Of a stretch of 55,341 nt of DNA, positions 29,910-53,254 are shown one piece after another; position 1 is the stretch's first letter, and every line of letters starts with the position of its first letter. Under the pieces are notes generated by a model. That model had not been told where the DNA came from, ran no database searches, and saw only the letters and a program-made list of their open reading frames with translations. The DNA comes from a virus. The translations under genes were made by a program, and so were the position numbers. The stretch covers positions 1 to 55,341 of IMG/VR virus record IMGVR_UViG_3300042887_003034; one strand, written 5' to 3'.

Positions 29910-30677
29910 TTAATTGCTGGTAAAGATTCGTGCTCTTGGATTCAGTTTGGGATTGTCTAACCAAATCCAATCACTGGTATGTACCGGGGTTAACTGTATG
30001 TGATGCAGGGGGATAAAGTATTTTTCCACGGGTATTTTCAGTTGGTCCACTATATTGGCCATGCTGCTGTCGGTCATGACTATGGCCGCTGCACGTTCAA
30101 TTACTGTGAGCCAGTCTGTTAGATATCCTTCATTGGTTATGGGCACTACGTCGTGAAGTTCGGGGATTAGGCCGGGATCTAACTCCACTGTGCTTTCGCT
30201 GGCTGTGAGATGTGTCACTATGTAGGGTCTAGCATTGTCTCCTCGAACCCGATCATACAATGCCTGTTCTCTTTCTTGACTTCTGGATATACAGTCTGCT
30301 AACTGCCATTTTTCACTAAATGGTACACCGGCTCGGAGATACTTGTATTGGTCGAAACTGACATGCTGGAAATAGGGTTCGCTGAGGAATTCTCTGTGCC
30401 CCGACAGTGCTTGATACAGGGGTATGATTTCTTTGCAGCCCCGTTGTTTTAATAACTCTAGGGGGCGATCATAGAAGAATTCACCCCGATCTGGAGTCAC
30501 GGGTATCCACGTACACCAGGGTGCAATCTCTGTCATTTCTTCAACCCACTGAGTACATATGGGCCAATACACTGCTCGATCTTGGCAGTGATAATAGTAT
30601 GCTATGGGCAGGGCTATGAATATATCGCCCAGGCCGCGGCTCTGTATAATACCTAATTTTTCTCGTTTAATTTTCAT
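29910..30677 (-). CDS. GT9 (heptosyltransferase)-like glycosyltransferase
   Basis: 255 residues. The N terminus IIQSRGLGDIFIALPIAYYY fits the nucleotide-sugar fold entry of GT9 enzymes (RGLGD-). The C-terminal half has VITNEGYLTDWLTVIERAAA, then IVMTDSSMANIVDQLKIPVE, equivalent to the D-G--H segment of heptosyltransferases with TDSS in place of the usual residues. Probably modifies surface glycan. Overlaps the upstream GT gene by ATGA. Confidence 0.7.
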   Translation of the reverse strand: MKIKREKLGIIQSRGLGDIFIALPIAYYYHCQDRAVYWPICTQWVEEMTEIAPWCTWIPVTPDRGEFFYDRPLELLKQRGCKEIIPLYQALSGHREFLSEPYFQHVSFDQYKYLRAGVPFSEKWQLADCISRSQEREQALYDRVRGDNARPYIVTHLTASESTVELDPGLIPELHDVVPITNEGYLTDWLTVIERAAAIVMTDSSMANIVDQLKIPVEKYFIPLHHIQLTPVHTSDWIWLDNPKLNPRARIFTSN

Positions 30678-31556: not shown

Positions 31557-32381
31557 ATGAGTTTCCCTATACCAACAACACCCGAAACCACTGTAATTGC
31601 ACGCCCCGATTATAACGATATACGAGACATTGTAGACAATATTATAGGTCTAAACACCAGCGGCTATGGTGTGGCCTTTTTGGGTGCTGTGCCCGTGACT
31701 GCACGTAACCAAATTACCACTAGCCAGTGGTCAGCGTTGATCTTTGACATGAACAACATACATCAGCATATCTATGATGCCACAACCAGTACGTTGGCTC
31801 CTACCACTGCTTCTGTGGTTTCGCCGCAACTGGCCAACTCGCTGTACAATTTGGCTCTAGAACTGAATTCAAATCGATATAATATTCACCCTAATCAATA
31901 CTTTATTAATACTGTTACCAACAGTAAAATTATCAATGTGGACTTTGACACTGACACAGTACAGGGCGTCAGTACCAGTACCAATACCAGTTGGCTACAG
32001 AGCATGAGTCACATAGTACGCATGGGTTTTGCCACTGAAGAAATTGCACAGTATTTCTTTAACACCGGGGGTAAATTAGTTTGGAATACCACGTTTGATG
32101 TTACCACTGGTGAAACTGCTGCTGACACTGCTTGGTCTAATTTTATTCTTCAACTACAGGCCTTGGCCAACCCGCCCGATGTTAACATCTATGAATATGG
32201 GAGAAATCAGTATCTTGCGGGCAATGACACAGTGATAATAACCAATACCACGGGCACACTGAGTATAACACTGACCGTGGAAAAAACTGAAGGTAGATTG
32301 TTTAAATTTACTGCACTTTATCAAGACCTCAAGGCTGGGGGTCTAACCATACAGCCCGATGGCTATACCTGGAGATTCTAA
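31557..32381 (+). CDS. Probable virion structural protein
   Basis: 274 residues, MSFPIPTTPETTVIARPDYN, rich in Asn, Thr and Ser. Contains VVSPQLANSLYNLALELNSN, then SHIVRMGFATEEIAQYFFNT and a C-terminal beta domain (VIITNTTGTLSITLTVEKTE). This is typical of T4-like baseplate/fibre-associated proteins of environmental phages, without a named family. SD GAGGACTAGAT. Confidence 0.7.
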   Translation: MSFPIPTTPETTVIARPDYNDIRDIVDNIIGLNTSGYGVAFLGAVPVTARNQITTSQWSALIFDMNNIHQHIYDATTSTLAPTTASVVSPQLANSLYNLALELNSNRYNIHPNQYFINTVTNSKIINVDFDTDTVQGVSTSTNTSWLQSMSHIVRMGFATEEIAQYFFNTGGKLVWNTTFDVTTGETAADTAWSNFILQLQALANPPDVNIYEYGRNQYLAGNDTVIITNTTGTLSITLTVEKTEGRLFKFTALYQDLKAGGLTIQPDGYTWRF

Positions 32382-32390
32382 GGAACTGAT

Positions 32391-33344
32391 ATGGCACAGG
32401 GAGATTTTACACTTACCAACGTGGCATTGACATCGGCCACTATCGTTAGTTTTAGTTTTAATGATAACCCGTCAATAACACACAGCGCAGATTTAACTAA
32501 TTTTGGCGAAGGTGCTAATGAAACAGCAGCATTGGTCACACTGTCAACTCCATTGGTACTGGCTCCTTTGGCCAGTACTACTTTTAACACAGAATATTTT
32601 ACTGCAACCAATGTCAATGGTTTTTATTATGGATCTATAACAGTAAATGCACAACGTGGGCTGCTCAGCGAATCTGTAACAGTTACCAACACTGTGGAAG
32701 TTTATTCAGTACCACCCCCACCCCCTGACCCAGATCCCAACTATGCTATCAACACTGACCCACTGGGGGTTACACAAGTTGACGAGGGTAACACAGTAAA
32801 TTTTAAGGTCACCACAGTGGGTGTGGCCACTGGTACTGTACTGTATTGGACCACTGTGCTGCAGGGTGGGTGTACTGTAGGCGATTTTGCAGATGCTAGC
32901 CTGCAGGGCACAGTTACAATTGACAGCATAGGTGAAGGTACTATCAGTAGGCCTATATCTTCTGATGGTATTGATGACCCTGGAGAAAGTTTTTATCTTG
33001 AACTAAGAGTCATAGACTTTACGGGTACAATCACTGCTTACAGTCCCCCAGTTTTGATTATAACTCCATATGTACCCCCACCTTACGATCCCGGTGACTC
33101 CGGTGGATGGGAAGGCCCTGCTCCTGGAGAGCCTGGGCCTGCTCCTGGAGATCCCGGCTGTCCTCCAGGTGAAACTTCGTCACCTTCTGGTTGCACAGCA
33201 CCGGCAGGTGAAAGCGCAGCAGTGGGCATTGGCGGAAACGACGGAGGAAGTCCCAGTGACAGTGGCGGCGGCCCTGATGGTGATGGTGGTGATGGTGGTG
33301 ATGGTGGTGATGGTGGCGGTGGTGATGGTGGCCCTGGAGAATAA
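32391..33344 (+). CDS. Virion protein with Calx-beta-like domain and Gly/Asp/Pro tail
   Basis: 317 residues. The N-terminal beta domain (to about 110) ends in a proline hinge (SVPPPPPDPDPNY). A Calx-beta-like domain follows (about 120-230: TQVDEGNTVNFKVTTVG, DDPGESFYLELRV). The last 90 residues are collagen-/glycine-like (PGDSGGWEGPAPGEPGPAPG, then GDGGDGGDGGDGG). Probably an adhesive or decoration protein; the Asp-rich repeats may bind Ca2+. Confidence 0.75.
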   Translation: MAQGDFTLTNVALTSATIVSFSFNDNPSITHSADLTNFGEGANETAALVTLSTPLVLAPLASTTFNTEYFTATNVNGFYYGSITVNAQRGLLSESVTVTNTVEVYSVPPPPPDPDPNYAINTDPLGVTQVDEGNTVNFKVTTVGVATGTVLYWTTVLQGGCTVGDFADASLQGTVTIDSIGEGTISRPISSDGIDDPGESFYLELRVIDFTGTITAYSPPVLIITPYVPPPYDPGDSGGWEGPAPGEPGPAPGDPGCPPGETSSPSGCTAPAGESAAVGIGGNDGGSPSDSGGGPDGDGGDGGDGGDGGGGDGGPGE

Positions 33345-33352
33345 TTAAAACT

Positions 33353-34906
33353 ATGTCTATTTCAAATTTTATCAACAAACTAAAAATTTTTAGCAATTTT
33401 GGATATATGAGATCTGGGCAAATTATTCAAGGACCCCGTGCAACATTTTTAGAAACTACTAAGCATCTTTGGGAACCAGAAGAAAGACCTGTTTCATTTG
33501 TTGAACCCCCAGTTAGGATTATTCGAGTTACTCCAAATCCTATGCCGCAGTTTGTATTTCCACCGGGCAACACAAGTACACAAGTTTTTATTAATAATTA
33601 CACTAGCAGCACCGTTTACAACAGATTTAGAAGATTTACCGAGGCCACTACTCAAACATTATACATTTCTAATTTAGGAACTACTTCTGTAAACATTACT
33701 AATGTTCTACAGAATATCCCTCAACCGGGAGCCACTGTAGCAGTGTTTCATAGTACAACTACAATGACCATTGCTCCGGGGAATACTGGCACGGTTGTAG
33801 TAGGCTATTACGGAGATACTCCCGGGGAGTTTTCTAGTTTCTTAGTAGTTCAATCAGATTGGGGCTTGGGTAACTACAAAGTATTAACGTCTTCTAGTGT
33901 TCAAGAAACATACGATTTTAAAATCAATAGAATAAATCCGACTACTGAATTAACTACAGCATCAGCGTTTAGTCAGCAACTTTTACTAGATTATGGTGTT
34001 ACCCCAATTATTAACTTAATTGCTAGAAATAATGTAACTATTCCATTATCTGTAACTATAAATTCGGATAGTTCTGCATTTTCACCTGGACCGATCAACG
34101 GTAATAATTTTAAAGTAAGATTTAGAGCACAGGACATTAATAATCAAAATGGTGTTTATACTGCTACAATTACGGTCACCTCTTTAGGCGCTGTAAATAC
34201 CATAACCAGTGTTGTGAACTTAGATATTGACAAAGAAAGATTTGCTAATTTAGGTCGTTGGATCAGTGCTGCTGCACCAGATAATAGTGTTGTTGGAATG
34301 AGTTACGATATTATCGATAATCAAAGAACATTGACTATAGGTGTAGGCGTAGGTGGCGACAATGTTCCAGAATTGCATGAGGGTGGAATAGCCTATACCG
34401 CTACTGAAACATTAAGTTTTATTGGCACATATACAGATTATCCTTATTCGGGTTGGGCCACTGTTTATAGAATTCCTTTAACTGGAGAAAAGAGATCTTA
34501 CCTTACAGGTAAGAGAGACAGCGACGGAGTCTACGCTTACAGAGTTAAACCTGAAAGATTACCCGACGGACAGTACCCAGAAACTGACACTGAATATGAT
34601 CGATATTTTGGAGTTGAAACAGACACTGATAAATCTATGTTCGTAGTTAAAGATGACGGATATGGGAACTTGACCATTGCATTAAATCAATTACAGAGTC
34701 AATTGTCTGACAGCGAGTCATTTAATAAAACACTAAAGAATTTGACTAGATCATTACACTACTATTCCAATGCAGACATAGGTGGAAGATATTATCAATT
34801 AGATTCCGGTCCCGTACTAGACGGAACTGTAACCAGATTCTTCTATGGTTTTAATAATTCTGGAACTGTTCTAACTTCTTATGTAAATTTGCCTAGTTCT
34901 AATTAA
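33353..34906 (+). CDS. Large beta-rich structural/adhesion protein
   Basis: 517 residues. Two or three Ig-like segments: about 90-160 (QTLYISNLGTTSVNITNVLQ and TMTIAPGNTGTVVVGYYGDT, ASH-like) and about 190-300 with NNVTIPLSVTINSDSS. A C-terminal region of about 200 residues contains YFGVETDTDKSMFVVKDDGY and SDSESFNKTLKNLTRSLHYY. Likely a long virion fibre or capsid decoration. The codon use is more AT-rich than in 31557-33344, marking a boundary at 33350. Confidence 0.7.
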   Translation: MSISNFINKLKIFSNFGYMRSGQIIQGPRATFLETTKHLWEPEERPVSFVEPPVRIIRVTPNPMPQFVFPPGNTSTQVFINNYTSSTVYNRFRRFTEATTQTLYISNLGTTSVNITNVLQNIPQPGATVAVFHSTTTMTIAPGNTGTVVVGYYGDTPGEFSSFLVVQSDWGLGNYKVLTSSSVQETYDFKINRINPTTELTTASAFSQQLLLDYGVTPIINLIARNNVTIPLSVTINSDSSAFSPGPINGNNFKVRFRAQDINNQNGVYTATITVTSLGAVNTITSVVNLDIDKERFANLGRWISAAAPDNSVVGMSYDIIDNQRTLTIGVGVGGDNVPELHEGGIAYTATETLSFIGTYTDYPYSGWATVYRIPLTGEKRSYLTGKRDSDGVYAYRVKPERLPDGQYPETDTEYDRYFGVETDTDKSMFVVKDDGYGNLTIALNQLQSQLSDSESFNKTLKNLTRSLHYYSNADIGGRYYQLDSGPVLDGTVTRFFYGFNNSGTVLTSYVNLPSSN

Positions 34907-34943: not shown

Positions 34944-37223
34944 ATGCTGACTAACACATCTTATCAAATTCCATCTGATCAAATAAAACAGGTAAAATTT
35001 TCTGGTGACGGGAGACATTACGATTTTGAACTGTATAAACTAGGAAAAAACAGAGCAAAATTTATTGTAGTTAATCCCGATCCTCAAATATCTTTTGATT
35101 GGGAAAATGAATTTCAATATTATGTTCCTAACGTTCCCTTACCAATTGGTGCCTGTCTAGTAATATCGTATCAGGGAGAGTGGTACGCAAAAGTTTTTTC
35201 TAAAAACTGGGATTCTAGGCAAACATATCTATCGTTCGAAATTCAAATTCCTAAAAAAAGAATTGAAAGAGTTAAATGGGAAAAGAACGAAGCCTTCCGT
35301 GATAATTTTACACTTTTAAATGATCCTAGGGAAAATTTTAATTTAAATGTTTGGGATAAAGACTACGACTTAGTTTGGTATATCGATCCTAAGTTCACAG
35401 GCGACAAAAAAATCTGGGCCTTTTCTTGCAAAGCAGTGAGTAACAAAAATTCCTTGGGTATTAAAGATATGGGATATGTAACTCCTGTAATTAATAGAAA
35501 TCCGGATTTAGGTAATATTAATTTTGAAATCAAAGATTATCCTGTTTATTATGATTTAAACTATAATTTCATTTGGTATATTGATACTGAATTTACCAAC
35601 AATAAAAAAATTTGGATTTACAAATTAGAAAATAAAAATTCTAATTTAGATAAAGAGATGGGATATTTAACTCCTAACCTTCCTGATATTTTAGATGTTA
35701 TTTTTATTTCTTATAACGAACCAGAAGCAGAAAAAAATTGGCAAAGAGTTTTAGAAAAAGCACCTTGGGCAAAAAGAATTGATGGAGTGCAAGGAATTGC
35801 CAATGCTCATAAATTAGCCGCAGAGATCAGTGATACTGATATGTTGTATGTTGTAGACGGTGATGCGTACCTAACTGATGATTGGAATTTTAATTTTCAA
35901 CCTGGAATATTTGATCGTAGTTTTACTCATATTTGGCATTCTAAAAATCCAGTAAATGATTTAGAATATGGATATGGTGGAGTAAAACTATTTTCTAAAG
36001 ATAAGATCTTATCTTTAAAAGAATGGACCACAGTTGATTTTACTAGTCAAGTTTCGGACAAAATTAAAGTTATTGAAAAAGTTAGCAATGTCACAAAATT
36101 TGATACAGACCCATTTTCTGTTTGGAGAAGTTCTGTTAGAGAATGTGTAAAATTATATCGACATTCAAAATTGTATCCAAAAGATACAATCGTTAAAGAA
36201 AGATTAGCAAAGTGGAGAAAAAACGATAAAGACCATGTTTTTAAAAGTTATTCTAGGTCTGGTGCAGAATTTGCAATTAACCTATTAGATTCTCCGGAAG
36301 AAAATATTGAAAAGAAAGTAAATGATTTTAATTGGCTGCGTGAACAGTTTGAAAAAAATCAAAAGAGAGATACTTTAAATATCAAAGGCGACGAAACTGT
36401 AGTTGTTGAGAATAAGATAGAATCTAAATATTATTTTGATTCAAATGTTATCATAGATAAATTAAATGAGGTAAGCCCAAGTTTCTGTTTAGCAAAATGG
36501 TTTAATACCAGTATTCATATTCCAACAGGACAAACTCATAGTTGTTATCATCCGCCCTCACACAAAATTCCTCTTGAAGAAATTAAAATTGATGTAAGTT
36601 CACTGCATAATACAAAATACAAAAAGCAACAAAGAAAAAAAATGCTCGATGGTGTTAGACCTGATGAATGTAATTTTTGTTGGCAAATTGAAGACAGCGG
36701 TAATCAACTCAGTGACCGTGCCTATAGAAGTAAAGATGTTTGGGAATTTGGTATTGTTGACGAAGCATTAAAATCTAAAGATGAAGGTAATGTAAATCCT
36801 AGATATTTAGAAGTTAATTTTAATCAAGCCTGTAATTTCAAATGCAGTTATTGTAGTCCACATCTAAGTACTGAGTGGATGAAGGATATTGAAAAAAATG
36901 GTCCTTTTCAATTGGGTAATAGATTACATAACGATTTAAATTGGATGAAGGAACATGATGTATGGCCAAACAACAGTCTTGATAATCCTTATCTATTAGC
37001 ATTTTGGGAATGGTGGCCTACAATATATTCAAATTTAAAAACATTTAGGATGACGGGCGGTGAGCCCCTAATGGATAAAAATACATTTAGAATTTTTGAT
37101 TACATCAAACAAAATCCTAAGCCTGATTTACATCTCAGCATTACTAGCAATTGTTGTCCGCCTGGCAATCAATGGAACAAATTTATTAACAGTTTAAATG
37201 ATATAACTGAGTCTACAATATAG
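34944..37223 (+). CDS. GT-A-like / radical-SAM fusion protein, N-terminal part (frameshifted)
   Basis: 759 residues in the open part. Residues 1-240 are beta-rich with a repeated LVWYIDPKF / FIWYIDTEF motif. Residues 250-430 form a GT-A-like domain (DILDVIFISYNEPEAEKNWQ; DMLYVVDGDAYL with a DxD; YGYGGVKLFSK). Residues 490-760 hold an N-terminal Fe-S-binding Cys cluster (CLAKWFNTSIH, SCYHPPSHK, CNFCWQIED) and the radical-SAM motif CNFKCSYC (near 635), followed by MTGGEPLMD. The reading frame ends at a TAG, but the same protein continues 2 nt out of phase (see 37211-37801). First gene of the overlapping operon that runs to 43563. Confidence 0.82.
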   Translation: MLTNTSYQIPSDQIKQVKFSGDGRHYDFELYKLGKNRAKFIVVNPDPQISFDWENEFQYYVPNVPLPIGACLVISYQGEWYAKVFSKNWDSRQTYLSFEIQIPKKRIERVKWEKNEAFRDNFTLLNDPRENFNLNVWDKDYDLVWYIDPKFTGDKKIWAFSCKAVSNKNSLGIKDMGYVTPVINRNPDLGNINFEIKDYPVYYDLNYNFIWYIDTEFTNNKKIWIYKLENKNSNLDKEMGYLTPNLPDILDVIFISYNEPEAEKNWQRVLEKAPWAKRIDGVQGIANAHKLAAEISDTDMLYVVDGDAYLTDDWNFNFQPGIFDRSFTHIWHSKNPVNDLEYGYGGVKLFSKDKILSLKEWTTVDFTSQVSDKIKVIEKVSNVTKFDTDPFSVWRSSVRECVKLYRHSKLYPKDTIVKERLAKWRKNDKDHVFKSYSRSGAEFAINLLDSPEENIEKKVNDFNWLREQFEKNQKRDTLNIKGDETVVVENKIESKYYFDSNVIIDKLNEVSPSFCLAKWFNTSIHIPTGQTHSCYHPPSHKIPLEEIKIDVSSLHNTKYKKQQRKKMLDGVRPDECNFCWQIEDSGNQLSDRAYRSKDVWEFGIVDEALKSKDEGNVNPRYLEVNFNQACNFKCSYCSPHLSTEWMKDIEKNGPFQLGNRLHNDLNWMKEHDVWPNNSLDNPYLLAFWEWWPTIYSNLKTFRMTGGEPLMDKNTFRIFDYIKQNPKPDLHLSITSNCCPPGNQWNKFINSLNDITESTI

Positions 37224-37801
37224 ATCATTTTATGTTATACTGTAGTTTGGATAGTTGGGGCTCTCAAGCAGAATACATTCGAACAGGTTTAGATTTTAGT
37301 ATTCTACTAAGAAATGTTAGAGAGTTTTTAGTATCTGGAAATGACAAACATAGCCTAACATTTATTTGCACTTTTAACGCACTAAGTTACTCTGGTTTTC
37401 TAGAATATATGAAAAACATTCTAGAATTAAGAAAAGAATTTAATACTACTAGGCAGTTAATTTGGTTTGATATTCCTCAGTTACAAAATCCAGAATGGTT
37501 AAATCCAAAGTTAATTCCTGAACTGGTCAGCAGTCTAGAAGAAACTAAACAATTTATGAGTGCTAATGCAGAAACAATAAAAAATCAATTTAAAGGTTTT
37601 AAGGATTTTGAAATTAGTAAAGTACAAAGACTTATAGATTGGATTAAAGATGATGCAAAATTTGATAGACAATCTGCAATGAAAAACTTTTATTCATTTT
37701 GGAAAGAAAATGATAAAAGAAATAAAACAGATTTCTTAATGGTATTTCCGGAGTTAGAAAATTTTTGGAATGAATGTAGGAAGCAACATGGACGAACATA
37801 G
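37211..37801 (+). pseudogene. C-terminal part of the frameshifted radical-SAM protein
   Basis: Continuation of 34944-37223: IDHFMLYCSLDSWGSQAEYI aligns with FSFFTSIDSWGPEAEYM of the next gene. The frames meet at ACAATATAGATC, where one extra TA (or one lost base) explains the shift. A separate start at ATG 37232 would give 189 residues lacking the radical-SAM core, which is not a sensible enzyme. Either a true mutation, a programmed shift or a sequencing/assembly error. Confidence 0.75.
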
Positions 37802-39152
37802 AATTCAATTTGTAAAAAGCGTAAGGGATAGATTAAATGCAGTAAGCCCAAGTTTTTGTACTCAAAAATGGTTACATGAAACTTTGTACCTACATACAGG
37901 TGATAATCACAGTTGTTACCATCCTAGGCCCCATCATATAGGAATAGACGAAATTGCAAAAGATCCCAGTGCATTGCATAATACTGAATGGAAAAAACAA
38001 CAGAGAAAAGAAATGCTTGAAGGACAACGTCCTAAGGAGTGTTATTACTGTTGGAATATAGAAGACTTACCTGGAGAAAATCTCAGTGATAGAATGATTC
38101 ATAGTGCCAGTGATTACGCTGAAAAACATATTGAAAATTTAGGTAAGTTAGATTGGCGTCAAAATGTTAACCCAAAATATTTAGAAGTAAGTTTTGGAAA
38201 CAATTGTAATTTTCGATGTGGATATTGTTGCCCTCAAGCCAGCACACAATGGATTGATGAAATTAAAAATTATGGTAACTACGATTTGACTTATAATCAG
38301 TATGGGATAGAGTTTTTAAAACATGGAACTTACTATACATACAAAGAACAGAATCCATATATCGATGCATTTTGGAAATGGTGGCCCGATCTTAAAAAAG
38401 ATTTACACACATTAAGAATTACTGGTGGTGAACCTTTAATGAATCCAGCAGCAATGCATTTCTTTGATTTATTAGAAGATCAACCTAGTCCGCATTTAGA
38501 AATAACACTGAACAGTAATCTAGGTGTATCTTATGGAAAAATTGAAAGACTGTTGGCAAGAATTAAAAGTCTTTTAGATCAGAAAAAAATTAGAAAGTTT
38601 AGTTTCTTTACCAGTATAGACAGTTGGGGACCTGAAGCAGAATATATGAGAACAGGTTTAAATTGTACTCATTGGGAAAGAAACGTTAAACAGGTAATGG
38701 ATACCGGCGCCACAGTTAATCTAATGTGTACATTTAATGTGTTGTCAGTTACTAACTTTAAAAAATTATTAGAAAAAGTTATCGAGTGGAGAAAAGAAAA
38801 AGGATTTAAATCAGTGGCATTTGATACACCTTATCTCAAAGAGCCCCCTCACTGGATGATAAAAATACTCACTCCAGATTTTGAAAAATACATGGATGAA
38901 AATTTAAAGTTTATAGAATCTAACATGGAATGGTTTACTGGTGTAGAATTTGAAAAATTTAAACGATTAACAAACTATATGAAAGAGCATAAACTTCCTG
39001 AAGAAAAAATTATGGCAGGTCGTAGAGATTTTTATGTATTCTTTACAGAAAATGATCGAAGACTGGGAACAAATTTGTTAAAAATTTTTCCAGAGTATAA
39101 AGAATTTTATAATCTATGTAAGTCAGTTTATGAGAATTATCAAACACTATGA
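37788..39152 (+). CDS. Radical-SAM protein with N-terminal Cys-rich domain (2)
   Basis: 454 residues from MDEHRIQFVKSVRDRLNAVS (SD TAGGAAGCAAC). The N-terminal twitch/SPASM-like Cys set (FCTQKWL, SCYHPRPHH, ECYYCWNIED) is followed by CNFRCGYC (about 140-147), RITGGEPLMN and SIDSWGPEAEYMRTG. Closest relative is the C-terminal half of the preceding gene, so the two arose by duplication. These enzymes cleave S-adenosylmethionine and abstract hydrogen from a substrate; the substrate is unknown. Overlaps the upstream end and the next start (ATGA). Confidence 0.87.
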   Translation: MDEHRIQFVKSVRDRLNAVSPSFCTQKWLHETLYLHTGDNHSCYHPRPHHIGIDEIAKDPSALHNTEWKKQQRKEMLEGQRPKECYYCWNIEDLPGENLSDRMIHSASDYAEKHIENLGKLDWRQNVNPKYLEVSFGNNCNFRCGYCCPQASTQWIDEIKNYGNYDLTYNQYGIEFLKHGTYYTYKEQNPYIDAFWKWWPDLKKDLHTLRITGGEPLMNPAAMHFFDLLEDQPSPHLEITLNSNLGVSYGKIERLLARIKSLLDQKKIRKFSFFTSIDSWGPEAEYMRTGLNCTHWERNVKQVMDTGATVNLMCTFNVLSVTNFKKLLEKVIEWRKEKGFKSVAFDTPYLKEPPHWMIKILTPDFEKYMDENLKFIESNMEWFTGVEFEKFKRLTNYMKEHKLPEEKIMAGRRDFYVFFTENDRRLGTNLLKIFPEYKEFYNLCKSVYENYQTL

Positions 39153-40378
39153 ACACAATAAACGAAAGTACTTGGTGCGTTAATGCATTTCACGGAATGT
39201 CAGCAAACAATGATGGAAGCACCAAAACTTGCTGTATGATTAAAGAGTCGTACAACAAGTTAATAGGGCCTTCTAAAGTCAATTATAATTTGTTAGACTT
39301 GTCAATTCAGAAAAATTTTAATAATCCAAAAGTTATTGAAATAAGAAATAATTTGTCTCAAGGGATCAAAGATCCTGCATGTATTAGGTGCTGGGTAGAA
39401 GAAGATTCTGAAAGAAAAAGTAAAAGAATGCGAGACAATGAAAGGTACTTTCATGAAGTTCAATGGGGTCAGCGACAACCTTTTACTGGGCTTGCAAAGT
39501 TTGAATTAAACTTAGGCAATACCTGCAACATTAAATGTAGAACCTGTCATGCATCTATTAGCAGTCAATGGATGAAAGAAGACTTTGATTTAAATCATTC
39601 TAATCACAAAACATTTCAGCAATATAGCAGTGAAATGAAACGGTACCATCAGTCATATGATGATGAAAGTCCATTCTGGGAAGATTTAAAAAATAATTTA
39701 TCCACAATTAAGCAATTTGATTTTTACGGTGGAGAACCATTTTTAAGTAAAAAGATGTGGGAAATACTTAAAATTTGTGTTGAAAAAGGTTATTCTAAAG
39801 ATATTGAACTACATTACAACACAAATGGCACCACATGGCCTGCTGAAATAGAATTGTGGAAAAATTTTAGATCTATTAATTTAAGTTTTAGTATAGACGG
39901 AACAGATAAACAATTTGAGTTTATGCGTTTTCCTGCTAACTGGCAAGAAGTTTGCAAAAACATGGAAAAGGCTGTTGAATTTAAAAAAGAATATCCTTTT
40001 ATGAATTTGAGTTGGTGTGTAACACTTAGCACATTAAACATCTTTTATCTTCCAGAAATTTTAAACGAGTATTACCGATCATTTTTAGATTTTGGATTAT
40101 ATCTAAATCTAGTCCATGACCCTGTTCATTTTAACATGAGCAAAATACCTAACGGAATTAAAGATGAGATTATATCAAAGTTAGAAACTATCGATAAATC
40201 ATATACTCAAGCATGGTATCAATTGCCTGGAATTATAGGCTTCATTAAACATGGTACTCCAGACATGTCTAATTGGTCAAACTTTTTAAAAACTGTGAAA
40301 ATACATGATCAGTATAGAAAACAAAATTACTTTGAAATTTTTCCTGAATTTGCTGAGGTAATTAAAAAATATGAATAA
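39149..40378 (+). CDS. Radical-SAM protein with N-terminal Cys-rich domain (3)
   Basis: 409 residues. WCVNAFHGMSANNDGSTKTC and PACIRCWVEED form the N-terminal auxiliary-cluster region, then CNIKCRTC (near residue 128), FDFYGGEPFL and NLSFSIDGTDKQFEFMRF. Auxiliary cysteines before the SAM core are a permuted version of the SPASM/twitch arrangement. Four-base overlap with the upstream gene, eight with the next. Confidence 0.87.
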   Translation: MNTINESTWCVNAFHGMSANNDGSTKTCCMIKESYNKLIGPSKVNYNLLDLSIQKNFNNPKVIEIRNNLSQGIKDPACIRCWVEEDSERKSKRMRDNERYFHEVQWGQRQPFTGLAKFELNLGNTCNIKCRTCHASISSQWMKEDFDLNHSNHKTFQQYSSEMKRYHQSYDDESPFWEDLKNNLSTIKQFDFYGGEPFLSKKMWEILKICVEKGYSKDIELHYNTNGTTWPAEIELWKNFRSINLSFSIDGTDKQFEFMRFPANWQEVCKNMEKAVEFKKEYPFMNLSWCVTLSTLNIFYLPEILNEYYRSFLDFGLYLNLVHDPVHFNMSKIPNGIKDEIISKLETIDKSYTQAWYQLPGIIGFIKHGTPDMSNWSNFLKTVKIHDQYRKQNYFEIFPEFAEVIKKYE

Positions 40379-41618
40379 TTTTTGGAACTTAGACGAACTT
40401 GAACAAATACACATTGAATTGACTAATGCTTGTAACGCTGCTTGTCCAATGTGTGTAAGATTTTATAATAACAGCCCTAATGTTAGGCCTGATTTAGAAA
40501 TAAATCAAATCACTTACGAAAAGTTTGTTAAGTATTTTCCTCCAAAAATTATTGAAAAATGCAATTTAATATTTTTCTGTGGAGTACATGGTGATCCTTG
40601 TGTTGCTAGAGATACTTACGAAATATGTGAATATATATCTCAAGTCGGACCTAATACAGCAGTGAGAATACATACCAATGGAGGAATGAGAAAACCCGAT
40701 TGGTGGGAAAAAATGGGAAAGTTATTTTCAAATTTTTCAAATAGGAAAAATAACCTTTGGGAAATAACTTTTAGCATAGATGGATTAGAAGATACAAATC
40801 ACGTTTATAGAAGAAATGTGGTATGGAAAAGTCTAATGGAAAATGTTTCGGCATATATTAATGCTGGTGGATCTGCTTCGTGGGACTATCTAATTTTCAA
40901 GCACAATGAACATCAATTAGCGGAAGCCAAAGAATTTGCAGAAAAAATGAAATTTAGAACATTTGTTCCTAAAAAAGCATTAGGTGTAGATGATGGAATT
41001 AGTCTTACAAAGATGCCTGTGCTTGATAAAAATGGAAACTTAGAATATGTTATTGAAGCACCAGAAAATCCTAAAAATAGAAATTTAGAAAAGCCAGAAG
41101 GAACCTTGCCGATTAGATTCTATCCTTTTAATTTAAATGATTATAGAAAGATTAAAGGAACATCTATTTTAAAAGAAAAATATCGTCAACAAGTAGAAAA
41201 TGTATATGAAGAAAGAATTTTAAATGAAGATAATTCAAAATTTAATAATTGTGAAATAAAATGTAAATCAAAAACTCTGTCTGGCGGTAAAGAAATATTT
41301 GTTGACAACTTTGGAAGAGTTATGCCTTGTTGTTATATTGGAACACACTTAAATGGTTTATATAACGATTTTCGATCTATGCAATTGCACAAGCATATGA
41401 ACGATTATGGGTGGGACAACTTTAGTTTGGATAAACATTCTTTAGAAGAAATTTTAAATAATCATCATCTAGATCGTGTTTTTGCAGATAGTTGGAAAAT
41501 ACCAAAAGTCGAAGATGGTAGATTGTCGTATTGTGCAGATACCTGTGGAAAGATAAGTAGTATTGATAAGATTTTTAGTCACGATGACAATCCAAATAAA
41601 TTTATTAGAAATGTATGA
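40371..41618 (+). CDS. Radical-SAM protein with C-terminal SPASM-like cysteines (4)
   Basis: 415 residues. The core begins at residue 12: IHIELTNACNAACPMCVRFY (CxxxCxxC), then FFCGVHGDPCVARD and ITFSIDGLEDTNHVYRRN. C-terminal cysteines CEIKCKS, VMPCCYIGTH and YCADTCGK would bind an auxiliary cluster in the usual SPASM position. Unlike its neighbours the order is core first, auxiliary last, so the operon has both arrangements. Confidence 0.87.
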   Translation: MNNFWNLDELEQIHIELTNACNAACPMCVRFYNNSPNVRPDLEINQITYEKFVKYFPPKIIEKCNLIFFCGVHGDPCVARDTYEICEYISQVGPNTAVRIHTNGGMRKPDWWEKMGKLFSNFSNRKNNLWEITFSIDGLEDTNHVYRRNVVWKSLMENVSAYINAGGSASWDYLIFKHNEHQLAEAKEFAEKMKFRTFVPKKALGVDDGISLTKMPVLDKNGNLEYVIEAPENPKNRNLEKPEGTLPIRFYPFNLNDYRKIKGTSILKEKYRQQVENVYEERILNEDNSKFNNCEIKCKSKTLSGGKEIFVDNFGRVMPCCYIGTHLNGLYNDFRSMQLHKHMNDYGWDNFSLDKHSLEEILNNHHLDRVFADSWKIPKVEDGRLSYCADTCGKISSIDKIFSHDDNPNKFIRNV

Positions 41619-42424
41619 AGCATAGATATAAGAGATTAATAGCCTATGGGTGTAGTTTTACCGCCGGAGCAGAAACTGTAGATCACGAGTATTGCCATCA
41701 GCAATATCGAGATAATCTTGATGAAATAAAAAGGAAAGGTGAAGCGAAGGATCTTAACGATGAAAAATATTTTCCTAAAGGTGCAGCATCTATTATTCTA
41801 GAAGAACAAAAAAAATATTCTTATGCTGCATTTATTGCAAAAAATTTAAATTTAGAATATGAAAATTGGTCAATCCCAGGTAGTTCTTTACAACATGCTA
41901 TTTTTAATTTTGAAAGAGATTTTGTAAAAAATAAATTTTTCGATACTGATATTGTACTTTTTGGTATAACATCTCCAGGTAGATGGTTTTGGTTGACAGA
42001 TGAAGGAGTTGGTAAAAGTGCAATATTTGGCTGGGAAAATAATTGGCCTACAAAAGAACTTCATGATCTGTTTTTACAACATCTATTCAATGATTATAAT
42101 GTTTTGTTTAATTTCTTCCACTCGATAAAATATATTGAGTTGCTAAATAGATCTTCAGATTTTTTAGTTCTTCAGCAATTTTGTCATGAGGACATACCTT
42201 ATTATATTAACAATTCTAATTTTAAAGAAGAAAAAAATAAAAATATTTTGATATCTATGTTAAATAATTCCAAGAGTTTTAATTCAATTGTTGATTTTAA
42301 TTTTTCATTTTCTAAAATATTGAATTGGTCAAATGATACGCATGGGTCATGGCATCCTAAAAAACATCATCACGAAATATTTGCCAACGATTTAACTACT
42401 ATGATAACTAGAAAATATTTATGA
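41615..42424 (+). CDS. SGNH-like hydrolase
   Basis: 269 residues. RLIAYGCSFTAGAETVDHEY gives the GxS block I (GCSFTAG) of the SGNH fold; IPGSSLQHAIFN, DIVLFGITSPGRW and the C-terminal SWHPKKHHHEIFAND (H near residue 250) are consistent with blocks II, III and V. It might esterify or de-esterify a glycan or lipid. Sits between two radical-SAM genes with four-base overlaps on both sides, so it belongs to the same pathway. Confidence 0.75.
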   Translation: MKHRYKRLIAYGCSFTAGAETVDHEYCHQQYRDNLDEIKRKGEAKDLNDEKYFPKGAASIILEEQKKYSYAAFIAKNLNLEYENWSIPGSSLQHAIFNFERDFVKNKFFDTDIVLFGITSPGRWFWLTDEGVGKSAIFGWENNWPTKELHDLFLQHLFNDYNVLFNFFHSIKYIELLNRSSDFLVLQQFCHEDIPYYINNSNFKEEKNKNILISMLNNSKSFNSIVDFNFSFSKILNWSNDTHGSWHPKKHHHEIFANDLTTMITRKYL

Positions 42425-43563
42425 ACACTTCAACATTCTGTGCATATCCATTTAATTCTGTATTTTTAGGAGCGGACGGTTTAGTAAAAACTTGTTGCTC
42501 CTCTAGCCAGCCCATCGGTGATATAAACAAAGATAGTATTGAAGATATAATTCAGGGAAACTTGGCTAAAGAAATTAGGCAGTCTATTGTTGAAGGAAAA
42601 TGGCACAATGCCTGCACACAATGTAAACATCTAGAAAGTTTAGGTGGTAGAACAGAGAGAACAGGTGTACTTTATAAGTTTGATGAATTTAAAAATTCAA
42701 CATCTTCTACATTTAGATTACAGCAAATAGATCTACGCTGGAGTAATGTTTGTAATTTGTCCTGCAATTATTGTTACGAATATTTTAGTTCTCAATGGGC
42801 CGCAATAAAAAATATCAAAGTTAATTACAATAAAAGCAATGCTGAAGAAAATTTATTGTTGTTTATAGATAAAAATAAAGAAACAATTCAATCGGTTAAT
42901 TTGTTAGGTGGCGAACCGTTATTGCAAAAGCAAAATTTAAAATTGTTCGATATTTTACCAAATAAAAAATATTATCTATTAACTAACTTATCTACAGATA
43001 TTCCAAATGGCCCTATAGCACAGAAATTAATAACAATGCCGAATGTTGCTTGGGCAGTAAGTTTTGAAACAATAAACAAAAAATTTGAATATGTGAGACA
43101 TGGTGCAAATTGGAAAAAATTATGTTCTAACTTAAAATATCTAAAAGAAAATAATGTTAGAGAAATAAATGCTCATCCTATGTATTGCACTTATTCGGCA
43201 TTTAATCTCTGTGAGTTCTATGATTTTATAGATCAATCAAATTATTTTACAAATATATATTGGTGTGTAATTCAAAACATAAAAGGAATTAATGTTTTTA
43301 CTTTATCTAAAAGTTTAAAACAAAAAGCCATAGATGAAATAAGCAAATGTGTTGAAAAATATAAATCAAAATACGACATGAGTGCATTGATTAACATCAA
43401 AAATTCACTATTAGAATCTTTAGAAAAAGAATATAAAAAATCTGATATAGAAGACTTCTTTGATTGGTTATACAAACTTGAAAATACACAAAATGTTAAT
43501 AAATCTTATGTTTTTAAGGACTTATGGCCAGAAATCTACGAAGAAATGTCAAAATTGACATAA
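42421..43563 (+). CDS. Radical-SAM protein with N-terminal Cys-rich domain (5)
   Basis: 380 residues. FCAYPFNSVFLGADGLVKTC, CSSSQ and NACTQCKHLES at the N terminus, then CNLSCNYC (about residue 116) with SSQW, LLGGEPLLQ and WAVSFETINKKFEYVRHG. Same permuted layout as genes 2 and 3. Last gene of the operon, followed by a hairpin. Confidence 0.87.
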   Translation: MNTSTFCAYPFNSVFLGADGLVKTCCSSSQPIGDINKDSIEDIIQGNLAKEIRQSIVEGKWHNACTQCKHLESLGGRTERTGVLYKFDEFKNSTSSTFRLQQIDLRWSNVCNLSCNYCYEYFSSQWAAIKNIKVNYNKSNAEENLLLFIDKNKETIQSVNLLGGEPLLQKQNLKLFDILPNKKYYLLTNLSTDIPNGPIAQKLITMPNVAWAVSFETINKKFEYVRHGANWKKLCSNLKYLKENNVREINAHPMYCTYSAFNLCEFYDFIDQSNYFTNIYWCVIQNIKGINVFTLSKSLKQKAIDEISKCVEKYKSKYDMSALINIKNSLLESLEKEYKKSDIEDFFDWLYKLENTQNVNKSYVFKDLWPEIYEEMSKLT

Positions 43564-44835: not shown

Positions 44836-45156
44836 TTAAACCCTAAAACTTTCACCGCACCCACACCGATCTCTTTCATTTGGATTTTGAAATTCAAATC
44901 CCTCATTAAGCCCGTTGCGTACATAGTCTATGGTCATGCCTTCTAAATACGGACATGCCTTTGGGTCTACAAATATTTTGCAGTCCAAACAATCAATGCA
45001 GGTATCTTCTTGTTTAGGAGAATCAACGAATTCTAAAACGTAGGCAAGGCCCGAACAACCTGTGGTTTTGACACCAACACGTATACCGATGCCTTGTCCC
45101 CTACGTTGTATTTGTTGTTTGATCTTTTTAGCCGCTGTTTCAGTTAACGAAATCAT
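44836..45156 (-). CDS. IscA-family Fe-S carrier
   Basis: 106 residues. The three conserved cysteines of A-type carriers are present: Cys34 in TTGCSGLAY and Cys98/Cys100 in RCGCGESF. The core ITETAAKKI is typical. An extra CIDCLDC at 53-59 is unusual. It delivers Fe-S clusters to apoproteins. It overlaps the end of iscU by 17 bp, the same order (iscU-iscA) as in bacterial isc operons. Confidence 0.88.
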   Translation of the reverse strand: MISLTETAAKKIKQQIQRRGQGIGIRVGVKTTGCSGLAYVLEFVDSPKQEDTCIDCLDCKIFVDPKACPYLEGMTIDYVRNGLNEGFEFQNPNERDRCGCGESFRV

Positions 45157-45412
45157 GTTTTTTTCGATAGTCTTCTATAGCAGCCTTGATCGCGTCTTCA
45201 GCAAGAATTGAGCAATGTATTTTAACTGGGGGGAGTGCAAGATGTTCGGCGATTTCACTATTCTTAATAGTTCCCGCCTCGTCCAACGTCTTACCCTTGA
45301 CCCATTCTGTAACGAGTGATGAACTTGCAATGGCCGACCCACAGCCGTACGTTTTGAACTTTGCATCTTCGATGATACCTGTTTCTGGATTAACTTTAAT
45401 TTGTAGTTTCAT
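45140..45412 (-). CDS. iscU: IscU, C-terminal part (Fe-S scaffold)
   Basis: 90 residues from MKLQIKVNPETGIIEDAKFK to YRKKHDFVN. Contains YGCGSAIASSSLVTEWVKGK and PPVKIHCSILAEDAIKAAIE, including the second and third cluster cysteines (Cys in GCGSA, HCS) and the LPPVK motif bound by HscA. On its own it lacks the first ligand Cys and the N-terminal strands. It is in the same frame as 45425-45538, separated only by TAG CCT GGC and two codons (Asp-Val). See the bypass finding. Confidence 0.9.
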   Translation of the reverse strand: MKLQIKVNPETGIIEDAKFKTYGCGSAIASSSLVTEWVKGKTLDEAGTIKNSEIAEHLALPPVKIHCSILAEDAIKAAIEDYRKKHDFVN

Positions 45413-46255: not shown

Positions 46256-46579
46256 ATGATTAATATTACAGAAACTGCTAAGAAAAAAATAGAAGAATTG
46301 CTCGAAGAAGAAGGTAATTCTAATCTCAAATTGCGAACTTTTGTTCAAGGTGGAGGCTGTAGCGGAATGCAATACGGATTTACTTTTGACGAAGAGCAAA
46401 ATGAAGATGACTTTGAGTTCACTACTGGTAAGTTCAAAGTTCTAGTTGACTCAATGAGTATGCAATATATGCAAGGTGCCGAAATCGATTACAAAGATGA
46501 TCTCATGGGCAGTAGTTTTGCAATTAGGAACCCAAACGCTGAAACAACCTGTGGTTGCGGATCAAGTTTTTCAGTATGA
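46256..46579 (+). CDS. ErpA-like A-type Fe-S carrier
   Basis: 107 residues, [20 protein letters not shown]; Cys35 in [11 protein letters not shown], and Cys99/Cys101 in [11 protein letters not shown]. The GGGCSG and CGCGSSF wording fits ErpA better than IscA. It is divergent from iscU, giving the phage two A-type carriers plus the scaffold. Possibly leaderless late expression. Confidence 0.88.
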
Positions 46580-51560: not shown

Positions 51561-53254
51561 TGCCTGTTGATCGTTATCAAAATTCAACCAATTACGAACA
51601 TCCGCAGGAGAGCAATCTTCTAAATATTCATAGGACCATGCAGTACAACAGCCAGGGGCAACCTGTGGCTCGTGTGCATGTTGACGGTATTACATTAGAA
51701 GGTGATGTTATTGTTGATACTGTAAATTTAAGCACATCAACACTAGCTGCATTGGAAACAATAAATGTTGTACAAAGTTCCACACCTTGGGTTATTACAG
51801 GGTCGGTGATAGTTAGTAACTTTCCAACCACCTCCACAGTGTTCCAAGGTACAACACCTTGGGTAGTAACTGGTAATGTAACAGCAACTATCGCAGGTAC
51901 AGTCTCTGCCAGTATAGAGGGTGAAGTTAGTGTAGCAGAAATGAATCCTGACGCATTTGGTCGTCAGCGTGTCAGTGAACTGTTTACACTTGGCGACTAC
52001 AAGCACATCTATGCCATAGATCCAAACTTCCTTGACAGCACTGCTAATGGTGGTACAGTGACATTTGATGCAAATCAAGCCGCAGCCGTGTTGGCTACTT
52101 CTTCTAACACAGGCAGTTATGCTATACATCAAACTAAATTCTATCATCACTATCAGCCAGGCAAAAGTCAACTTATCTATAGTTCAGTAAACTTTCGTGC
52201 TCCACATCGTAATGTTACCAAGCGCACAGGATACTTTGATGATAGAGATGGCATCTATTTTGAACAAGTAGGCAGCGACACAGCGGATGGTACAACGGTA
52301 AGCACCAGCACACAAACACTAAACTGGGTCATAAGAACTTATGTAGGCGGTAGTGCTAGTGAAGCAACTTTCAACACAACTGTTAATGGATTGGCCTATA
52401 CTTACAAACGCCGTGTGCCGCAGAGTGAATGGAACATAGATCCCTGCGATGGCACAGGCCCTAGTGGTTTTAAATTAGATATTACTAAAACGCACCTATG
52501 CTGGATCGATTTTCAATGGTTAGGTGTTGGTCGTGTTCGCTGTGGATTTGTTCACAACGGAGCATTGATAACAGCACACGAATACTATCACAGCAATATT
52601 CTGCCCACTGTTTACATGAGCAATCCCAACTTGCCTGTACGCTGTGAAATACGCAACACTGGAACAACACCCGGCGGAGCATTTGATCAAATTTGTGCAA
52701 GTGTAATGAGCGAAGGCGGCTATGTGGAGTCGGGCATTGATTGGAGTGTCTTCAGTACAAACCGTGCTACTCCTACTCCGGGACAGACACGCTTTCCTTT
52801 GATTGCCATTAGATTGAAAAACACTTTCCAGGATTATCCTAATAGATTAAGTGTGCGCCCATTGAGTCTTGGCTTATTTGCCAAAACAGAACCCATTGTC
52901 TATGAAGTTGTTAAACTGACTAGTACGGCTAGTTTAAGCACTACAGCACCTGGCGGGCTAGTATGGACCAGTGCCAACGACAACAGTGGAGTTGAATACT
53001 GTGTAAATGCCACAGGATTTACTGCTGCTGATGTTGATAGATTTGCTTCTGGATATGTTCCGTCTGGCTCAAGCCAAAACAGTCTAAGTCCAGTGGCCAC
53101 AGGCCCGCTTACTGCGGCAAAGAAAAACATTATCAGTCAAAACATTGACAGCACCGACAGTGAAGTGTTTGTGGTCATTGTTAGCACTATATTTGCCGGC
53201 AATCAGTTGACCGCAGATGTAGCCTGTGCTATACAATGGCGAGAGATTTATTAA
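51560..53254 (+). CDS. Large virion structural protein
   Basis: 564 residues, MPVDRYQNSTNYEHPQESNL; VNLSTSTLAALETINVVQSS, two near-identical TPWVITGSVIV / TPWVVTGNVTA repeats (about residues 75-110), then AFGRQRVSELFTLGDYKHIY and YFDDRDGIYFEQVG. The FGRQRVSEPF-like motif marks a structural protein family found in many marine and freshwater T4-like phages. Function in the particle unknown. Confidence 0.75.
   Translation: MPVDRYQNSTNYEHPQESNLLNIHRTMQYNSQGQPVARVHVDGITLEGDVIVDTVNLSTSTLAALETINVVQSSTPWVITGSVIVSNFPTTSTVFQGTTPWVVTGNVTATIAGTVSASIEGEVSVAEMNPDAFGRQRVSELFTLGDYKHIYAIDPNFLDSTANGGTVTFDANQAAAVLATSSNTGSYAIHQTKFYHHYQPGKSQLIYSSVNFRAPHRNVTKRTGYFDDRDGIYFEQVGSDTADGTTVSTSTQTLNWVIRTYVGGSASEATFNTTVNGLAYTYKRRVPQSEWNIDPCDGTGPSGFKLDITKTHLCWIDFQWLGVGRVRCGFVHNGALITAHEYYHSNILPTVYMSNPNLPVRCEIRNTGTTPGGAFDQICASVMSEGGYVESGIDWSVFSTNRATPTPGQTRFPLIAIRLKNTFQDYPNRLSVRPLSLGLFAKTEPIVYEVVKLTSTASLSTTAPGGLVWTSANDNSGVEYCVNATGFTAADVDRFASGYVPSGSSQNSLSPVATGPLTAAKKNIISQNIDSTDSEVFVVIVSTIFAGNQLTADVACAIQWREIY

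Follow-up and report, generated by a model that had tools for sequence, protein, structure and literature searches.

A radical-SAM gene cassette with a GT-A-like fusion in an uncultivated aquatic phage, and its possible role in glycan tailoring

Cassettes of radical S-adenosylmethionine (rSAM) genes have already been reported in phages. In pelagimyophages they lie in the host-recognition cluster, beside tail fibres and in the same region as glycosyltransferases, and the same paper argues that, in related phages, a change of the host surface blocks co-infection (PMC7029224). For a marine T4-like environmental genome, TARA_ERS488813_N000010, an A-type carrier is reported along with 12 rSAM genes (PMC5332604). 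One family of rSAM enzymes has the NCBIfam entry NF033640 (N_Twi_rSAM, twitch domain-containing radical SAM protein), and no function for this named family, or for the rSAM cassettes of phages, was found in the published literature searched. Here we describe a cassette at positions 34944-43563 of the IMG/VR virus record IMGVR_UViG_3300042887_003034, which derives from an uncultivated aquatic phage; the whole 55,341-base stretch analysed is called the window below. The cassette encodes five rSAM enzymes (r1 to r5), a GT-A-like domain fused to r1, and an SGNH-type protein. We judge the chances to be about even that it is a glycan-tailoring module making an unusual surface sugar, the chemistry being predicted.

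The window shares with the pelagimyophage cassettes the aquatic phage origin, the position near tail-fibre genes and the glycosyltransferases in the region. However, in the portion of PMC7029224 used here those cassettes are mentioned without dissection, with no description of an order of five genes, a fusion to GT-A or a link to Bdellovibrionota. The TARA genome combines a high rSAM density with phage iron-sulfur (Fe-S) assembly genes, as does the window with its IscU-like gene and A-type carriers, whereas the sections of PMC5332604 used here stress Fe-S economy and give neither operon structure nor a glycan link. An earlier sequence-only reading had called such a density of rSAM genes unusual in a phage; this is too strong, as both papers report rSAM-rich phage genomes or cassettes. 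The present analysis adds a dissection of how the five genes are ordered, assigns the fused part to GT-A, and links the family to carbamoyltransferase/GT4 regions in Bdellovibrionota.

All genes of the cassette are on the plus strand. ORF1 (open reading frame 1; 34944-37223) comprises the GT-A-like part (34944-36470) and the N-terminal two thirds of r1 (36471-37223; NF033640 positions 1-231 of 398), and the rest of r1 (NF033640 positions 235-397) is found in an ORF at 37232-37801. They are followed by r2 (37770-39152), r3 (39149-40378), r4 (40371-41618), an SGNH/GDSL-type esterase or acyltransferase-like gene (41615-42424) and r5 (42421-43563), with overlaps of 4 bases between r2 and r3, 8 between r3 and r4, and 4 each between r4 and the SGNH-type gene and between the latter and r5. 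The five rSAM genes in a row with four- to eight-base overlaps that had been noticed earlier are thus present, with overlaps from r2 onward, but the run is broken between r4 and r5 by the SGNH-type gene, and r1 carries an interruption. The cassette has a GC content of 0.29-0.33, versus 0.37-0.60 in the rest of the window. Across the whole window, CxxxCxxC occurs in six frames of at least 100 codons; five are the cassette rSAM genes, and a short minus-strand frame at 52084 accounts for the sixth. Alternative genetic codes were ruled out, the large ORFs being open under table 11, and the window has no DNA-level near match among isolated phages.

Profile searches agree that the CxxxCxxC proteins are rSAM enzymes. 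Four of them exceed the curated NF033640 cut-off of 170 bits (r1, 211.5; r2, 303.4; r3, 297.2; r5, 216.3 bits), and r5 also has an N-terminal Pfam SPASM match (35.3 bits). r4 misses this cut-off (51.6 bits) and is not filed in the family; it passes the gathering score of Pfam Radical_SAM (29.7 versus 29.5 bits), and its C-terminal SPASM match is sub-threshold (17.2 versus 21.5 bits). In alignments, the invariant cysteines of r1 and r2 are C30, C49, C91 and C94, then the core C146, C150 and C153, and those of r3 and r5 are C7, C25, C26, C65 and C68, then the core C111, C115 and C118. The four and five invariant cysteines ahead of the core would suit the needs of an auxiliary cluster. In r4, the core (C21, C25 and C28) comes first and is followed by SPASM-like C298, C320, C321, C388 and C392, so that the arrangement proposed from the sequence, four enzymes with auxiliary cysteines before the core and one after it, is borne out. 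The likeness to NF033640 covers both score and cysteine placement in r1, r2, r3 and r5; the difference is that the family has a name without a function, whereas the window has an operon of paralogues together with a C-terminal-SPASM-like rSAM enzyme, a GT-A fusion and an SGNH-type gene.

The structural model of r2 (predicted local distance difference test, pLDDT, 93) has the rSAM fold. Its best matches, SkfB, BlsE, DesII, anSME and MoaA, are nearly tied (Z 12-13.6), and for this reason the fold does not name the substrate; residues 1-110, the N-terminal auxiliary domain, are barely covered by structural matches. Two of the best-ranked folds, DesII and BlsE, belong to rSAM enzymes acting on sugar nucleotides, but these have no detectable sequence relationship, are tied with peptide and nucleotide enzymes, and place the auxiliary cluster differently. 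Peptides are the substrates of most characterised SPASM/twitch rSAM enzymes (PMC11002830), the top folds include SkfB, and r3 and r5 weakly match maturase profiles of ribosomally synthesised and post-translationally modified peptides (RiPPs), so several rSAM enzymes working on one precursor of a RiPP-like natural product were considered. All the maturase scores are far under their cut-offs (PapB, 31.1 versus 340 bits; YhhB, 30.1 versus 445), the listed neighbour families include no recognisable RiPP transporter or protease, and the cassette is packed, its two ends leaving just 37 and 113 free bases. As the sequence-only reading had stated, no precursor-like peptide was found within it, and we regard a RiPP product as improbable. 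Other small-molecule or nucleic-acid chemistry, on a cofactor, a modified nucleotide or a DNA or tRNA base, would fit the partial matches to MoaA, QueE and viperin-like enzymes and the carriage of QueE-like rSAM enzymes by phages (PHROG 2076). These matches, however, are confined to the common rSAM core and far under cut-offs, no nucleotide enzyme is linked, and the neighbours are tail and glycan genes; of the explanations weighed here, this one is given the least credence.

ORF1 carries short WY-rich repeats at about residues 120-245, two in the window and more in two relatives (L007 and L027), and then a GT-A-like domain with DGD at about residues 250-430. An AlphaFold model of residues 225-512 (mean pLDDT 84) contains a GT-A core, with Foldseek E-values from 7e-5 downwards to GT2-type enzymes. 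The best structural matches were GT2-type enzymes (RmlT, SunS, ThuS, GalNAc-T, B4GALNT1 and WrtF) and IspD nucleotidyltransferases, with Z of about 11 over 130-140 residues (VIA, Z 11.4 over 139 residues). The DGD motif is placed after the expected strand and is retained in most homologues of a 31-row alignment. Fold and motif thus support the earlier proposal that the first rSAM enzyme is fused to a GT-A-like domain with a DxD; glycosyl transfer is predicted for it, since a shared fold shows no function. No relatives of this part were found among cultured phages. Because the relatives carry the GT-A-like protein as a separate gene ahead of r1, the window is so far alone in having the two fused.

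The r1 frame ends in a stop at 37223, and the NF033640 match is completed in another frame, open from 37211, which places a frameshift at 37211-37223. Either a genuine lesion or a mistake in the assembly could account for the interruption. In the former case the cassette might be decaying in this genome, the module being out of use, but r1 is uninterrupted in 11 relatives, none of the other cassette genes is broken, their spacing is tight, and the frameshift could equally well stem from one assembly error; decay seems to us very unlikely.

In the SGNH-type protein, the GxSxTxG block and the C-terminal histidine are invariant in 11 homologues, as are G12, S14, G18, N84, G89 and H247 individually. 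The window protein itself has no Pfam or PDB match, and similar genes near cassette relatives match Lipase_GDSL/DUF6071. These invariant motif residues speak for the putative SGNH assignment made from the sequence.

Relatives of the cassette genes were found in 51 IMG/VR loci (as r2 relatives), and their conserved order is r1-r2-r3-r4(-SGNH)-r5 with the GT-A-like gene in front. Many loci keep r2-r3-r4; r3-r4-r5 is kept in L007, L018 and L047, the first two of which also have r1 and r2. In about two dozen loci the cassette is preceded by a protein of about 110 amino acids, two GT-like proteins of about 280 amino acids (recognised by eye only) and the GT-A-like gene; the window is without the first three. 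A Pfam scan of 136 proteins neighbouring the phage relatives yielded carbamoyltransferase (4), dTDP-4-dehydrorhamnose 3,5-epimerase (3), GDSL (5) and DUF6071 (7), as well as DegT aminotransferase, NAD epimerase, UDP-glucose/GDP-mannose dehydrogenase and FkbM. Among cultured phages, relatives of r2, r3 and r5 occur in Vibrio phages only (22-23% identity) and those of r4 in one Pelagibacter phage. Isolated Vibrio phages of the KVP40 type have relatives adjoining a GT4-type gene; KVP40 itself has an r5-like rSAM gene (0272) 270 bases from a GT4-type glycosyltransferase gene (0274), which parallels the association seen here, although KVP40 has a single rSAM gene and the identity is about 23%. In the Pelagibacter phage Mosig, an r4-like rSAM gene belongs to a gene run that also encodes a UDP-amino-sugar aminotransferase and a carbamoyltransferase, and in the isolated phage K566, PagP lies about 6 kb from the rSAM genes.

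When an r2-family profile was scanned over 84,980 species genomes and the best 80 hits were used, the cellular relatives among these hits were almost only Bdellovibrionota. Twenty-one genomes of this group hold 3-33 copies each, often in tandem, and no copy of the family over the cut-off was found in 14 control genomes. Of the 34 sugar-type carbamoyltransferase genes among the matches listed for the 21 genomes, 16 have a member of the rSAM family within 20 kb (1.5 expected), as do 19 of the 150 GT4 genes (5.4 expected), the expectations using rounded genome sizes. A tree built from 183 sequences mixes the labels for phage and cell, with 25 label changes versus 60 when shuffled, and still 25 when weak nodes are collapsed; the labels are approximate, and a few contigs may be mis-binned. 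This pattern suggests repeated gene exchange between phages and cells. Some Bdellovibrionota loci (L059, L114 and others) contain tandem arrays of 7-9 N_Twi-type rSAM genes per locus, and the L114 array is chromosomal, since genes for ribosomal protein L21 and an Obg-like protein adjoin it. At L114:12755-13717 and in 16 other Bdellovibrionota loci, a protein of about 320 amino acids with no Pfam match is encoded, often directly 3' of an rSAM gene.

A further explanation takes a virion or fibre protein as the target of the enzymes, with rSAM chemistry joined to the glycosylation of a tail or fibre protein whose gene lies just upstream. Three tail/virion-like genes, u1, u2 and u3 (31557-34906, plus strand), directly precede the cassette; they have no database match, and homologues stand ahead of the cassette in relatives (u1, u2 and u3 in L007; u1 and u3 in L027; u1 in L008, L011, L022, L023 and L053). 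The position directly 3' of tail-type genes, here and in relatives, the cassettes reported beside tail fibres in PMC7029224, and the resemblance of the GT-A model to polypeptide GalNAc-transferases and SunS would all suit this explanation. So would a pairing in Bdellovibrionota, where genes for short S74 proteins are within 2 kb of an N_Twi-type rSAM gene in 8 of 10 cases, versus 0 of 23 for long S74 fibres. These short proteins (e.g., L105:11740-12174, L094:11752-12204 and L099:9192-9650) are about 150 amino acids long, with little beyond the S74 fibre-chaperone domain, and share a strictly conserved N-terminal motif, FGxIxEFNLxxIExExLxxSxYLDVFAGSD-like; they are a possible rSAM substrate or partner. 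This pairing, however, was not seen in phages, no candidate substrate protein is conserved across the phage loci, and the carbamoyltransferase and nucleotide-sugar context suits sugars better. The u2 copy in the window (32391-33344) ends in a Gly/Asp-rich tail, whereas that of L007 (L007:3363-4499) ends in a Gly run and then a Hint/intein-like domain (by eye). None of the other loci scanned showed a comparable Gly-rich tail upstream, and the Gly/Asp-rich tail was rejected as a substrate of the rSAM enzymes. On balance, modification of a virion protein appears rather unlikely.

We favour the glycan-tailoring reading because of the GT-A fold with its DGD motif, the SGNH-type motif, the conserved gene order, the sugar genes beside phage relatives, the carbamoyltransferase/GT4 linkage, and the DesII and BlsE folds. 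Several results weigh against it. The peptide enzymes SkfB, anSME and SuiB and the nucleotide enzymes MoaA and viperin reach scores against r2 close to those of DesII and BlsE. The GT-A domain of ORF1 has no match in Pfam, including its GT families, a few homologues of this part in the 31-row alignment lack the DxD, and the two extra GT8-like genes of the relatives, called by eye, were not confirmed with Pfam or PDB sequences. No nucleotide-sugar enzyme is recognisable in the window besides the GT-A part. Finally, genes less than 3 kb from the Bdellovibrionota rSAM genes are not richer in glycosyltransferases than those more than 5.5 kb away; the enrichment in sugar genes appears in the whole-genome comparison only and not in this near/far Pfam contrast, and the linkage is thus to a polysaccharide region rather than a strict operon. 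The preference of the sequence-only reading for a glycan gains indirect support from the gene contexts in IMG/VR phages, KVP40, Mosig and Bdellovibrionota, and modification of a peptide or protein becomes less probable. The sugar may be carried by lipopolysaccharide, another envelope glycan or the virion.

In the glycan-tailoring scheme, the substrate, order of steps, product and target surface are all predicted. Each rSAM enzyme would cleave SAM at its CxxxCxxC cluster, and the 5'-deoxyadenosyl radical would abstract hydrogen from a nucleotide-, lipid- or glycan-linked sugar, leading to redox change, dehydration, deamination or epimerisation, while the auxiliary cluster would bind the substrate or pass an electron. 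The GT-A protein would then transfer the sugar, and the SGNH protein would add or remove an acyl group. The product would alter the envelope glycan of the host during infection or, as a second choice, decorate the virion; a host cell surface or envelope glycan is the more likely carrier.

Outside the operon, an A-type Fe-S carrier gene and an IscU-like scaffold gene are found at 44836-45412 on the minus strand (Pfam Fe-S_biosyn, 73.9 bits; NifU_N, 124.3 bits), and a second A-type carrier gene at 46256-46579 on the plus strand (Fe-S_biosyn, 76.2 bits). The IscU-like protein, of 90 amino acids, matches NifU_N positions 38-124 and is thus without the N-terminal part. Similar Fe-S genes are present in five other rSAM phage loci, and those of the window, all within 3 kb of the cassette, may help to load the many rSAM clusters. 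On the minus strand at 29910-30677, a protein is encoded whose conserved counterparts precede the cassette in L007 (54%), L027 and L032; it appears GT9-like by eye, which no Pfam or PDB sequence match confirmed. Between 4023 and 28642 there are 45 copies of TTGACA-N17-TATACT with at most one mismatch (0.3 expected), all on the minus strand, and many share TTGACAGGGTC. This 25-kb region is apparently an early region of small genes, many of them behind a near-identical strong promoter, with a GC content clearly above that of the cassette.

If the glycan-tailoring reading is true, rSAM sugar chemistry joins the means by which phages remodel the host surface. N_Twi rSAM enzymes are abundant in uncultivated aquatic phages, and none in the records compared has a known reaction. 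As a tentative idea, to which we give somewhat less than even chances, aquatic phages and predatory Bdellovibrionota may share, by repeated gene exchange, an undescribed rSAM polysaccharide-tailoring system. In it, sets of rSAM enzymes with an N-terminal twitch, partnered by carbamoyltransferases, glycosyltransferases and SGNH proteins, would build surface sugars of a chemically new kind that serve to attack other bacteria and phages or to defend against them. The link to the Bdellovibrionota, with their 3-33 copies and carbamoyltransferase/GT4 regions, provides a cultivable group in which this chemistry could be tested.

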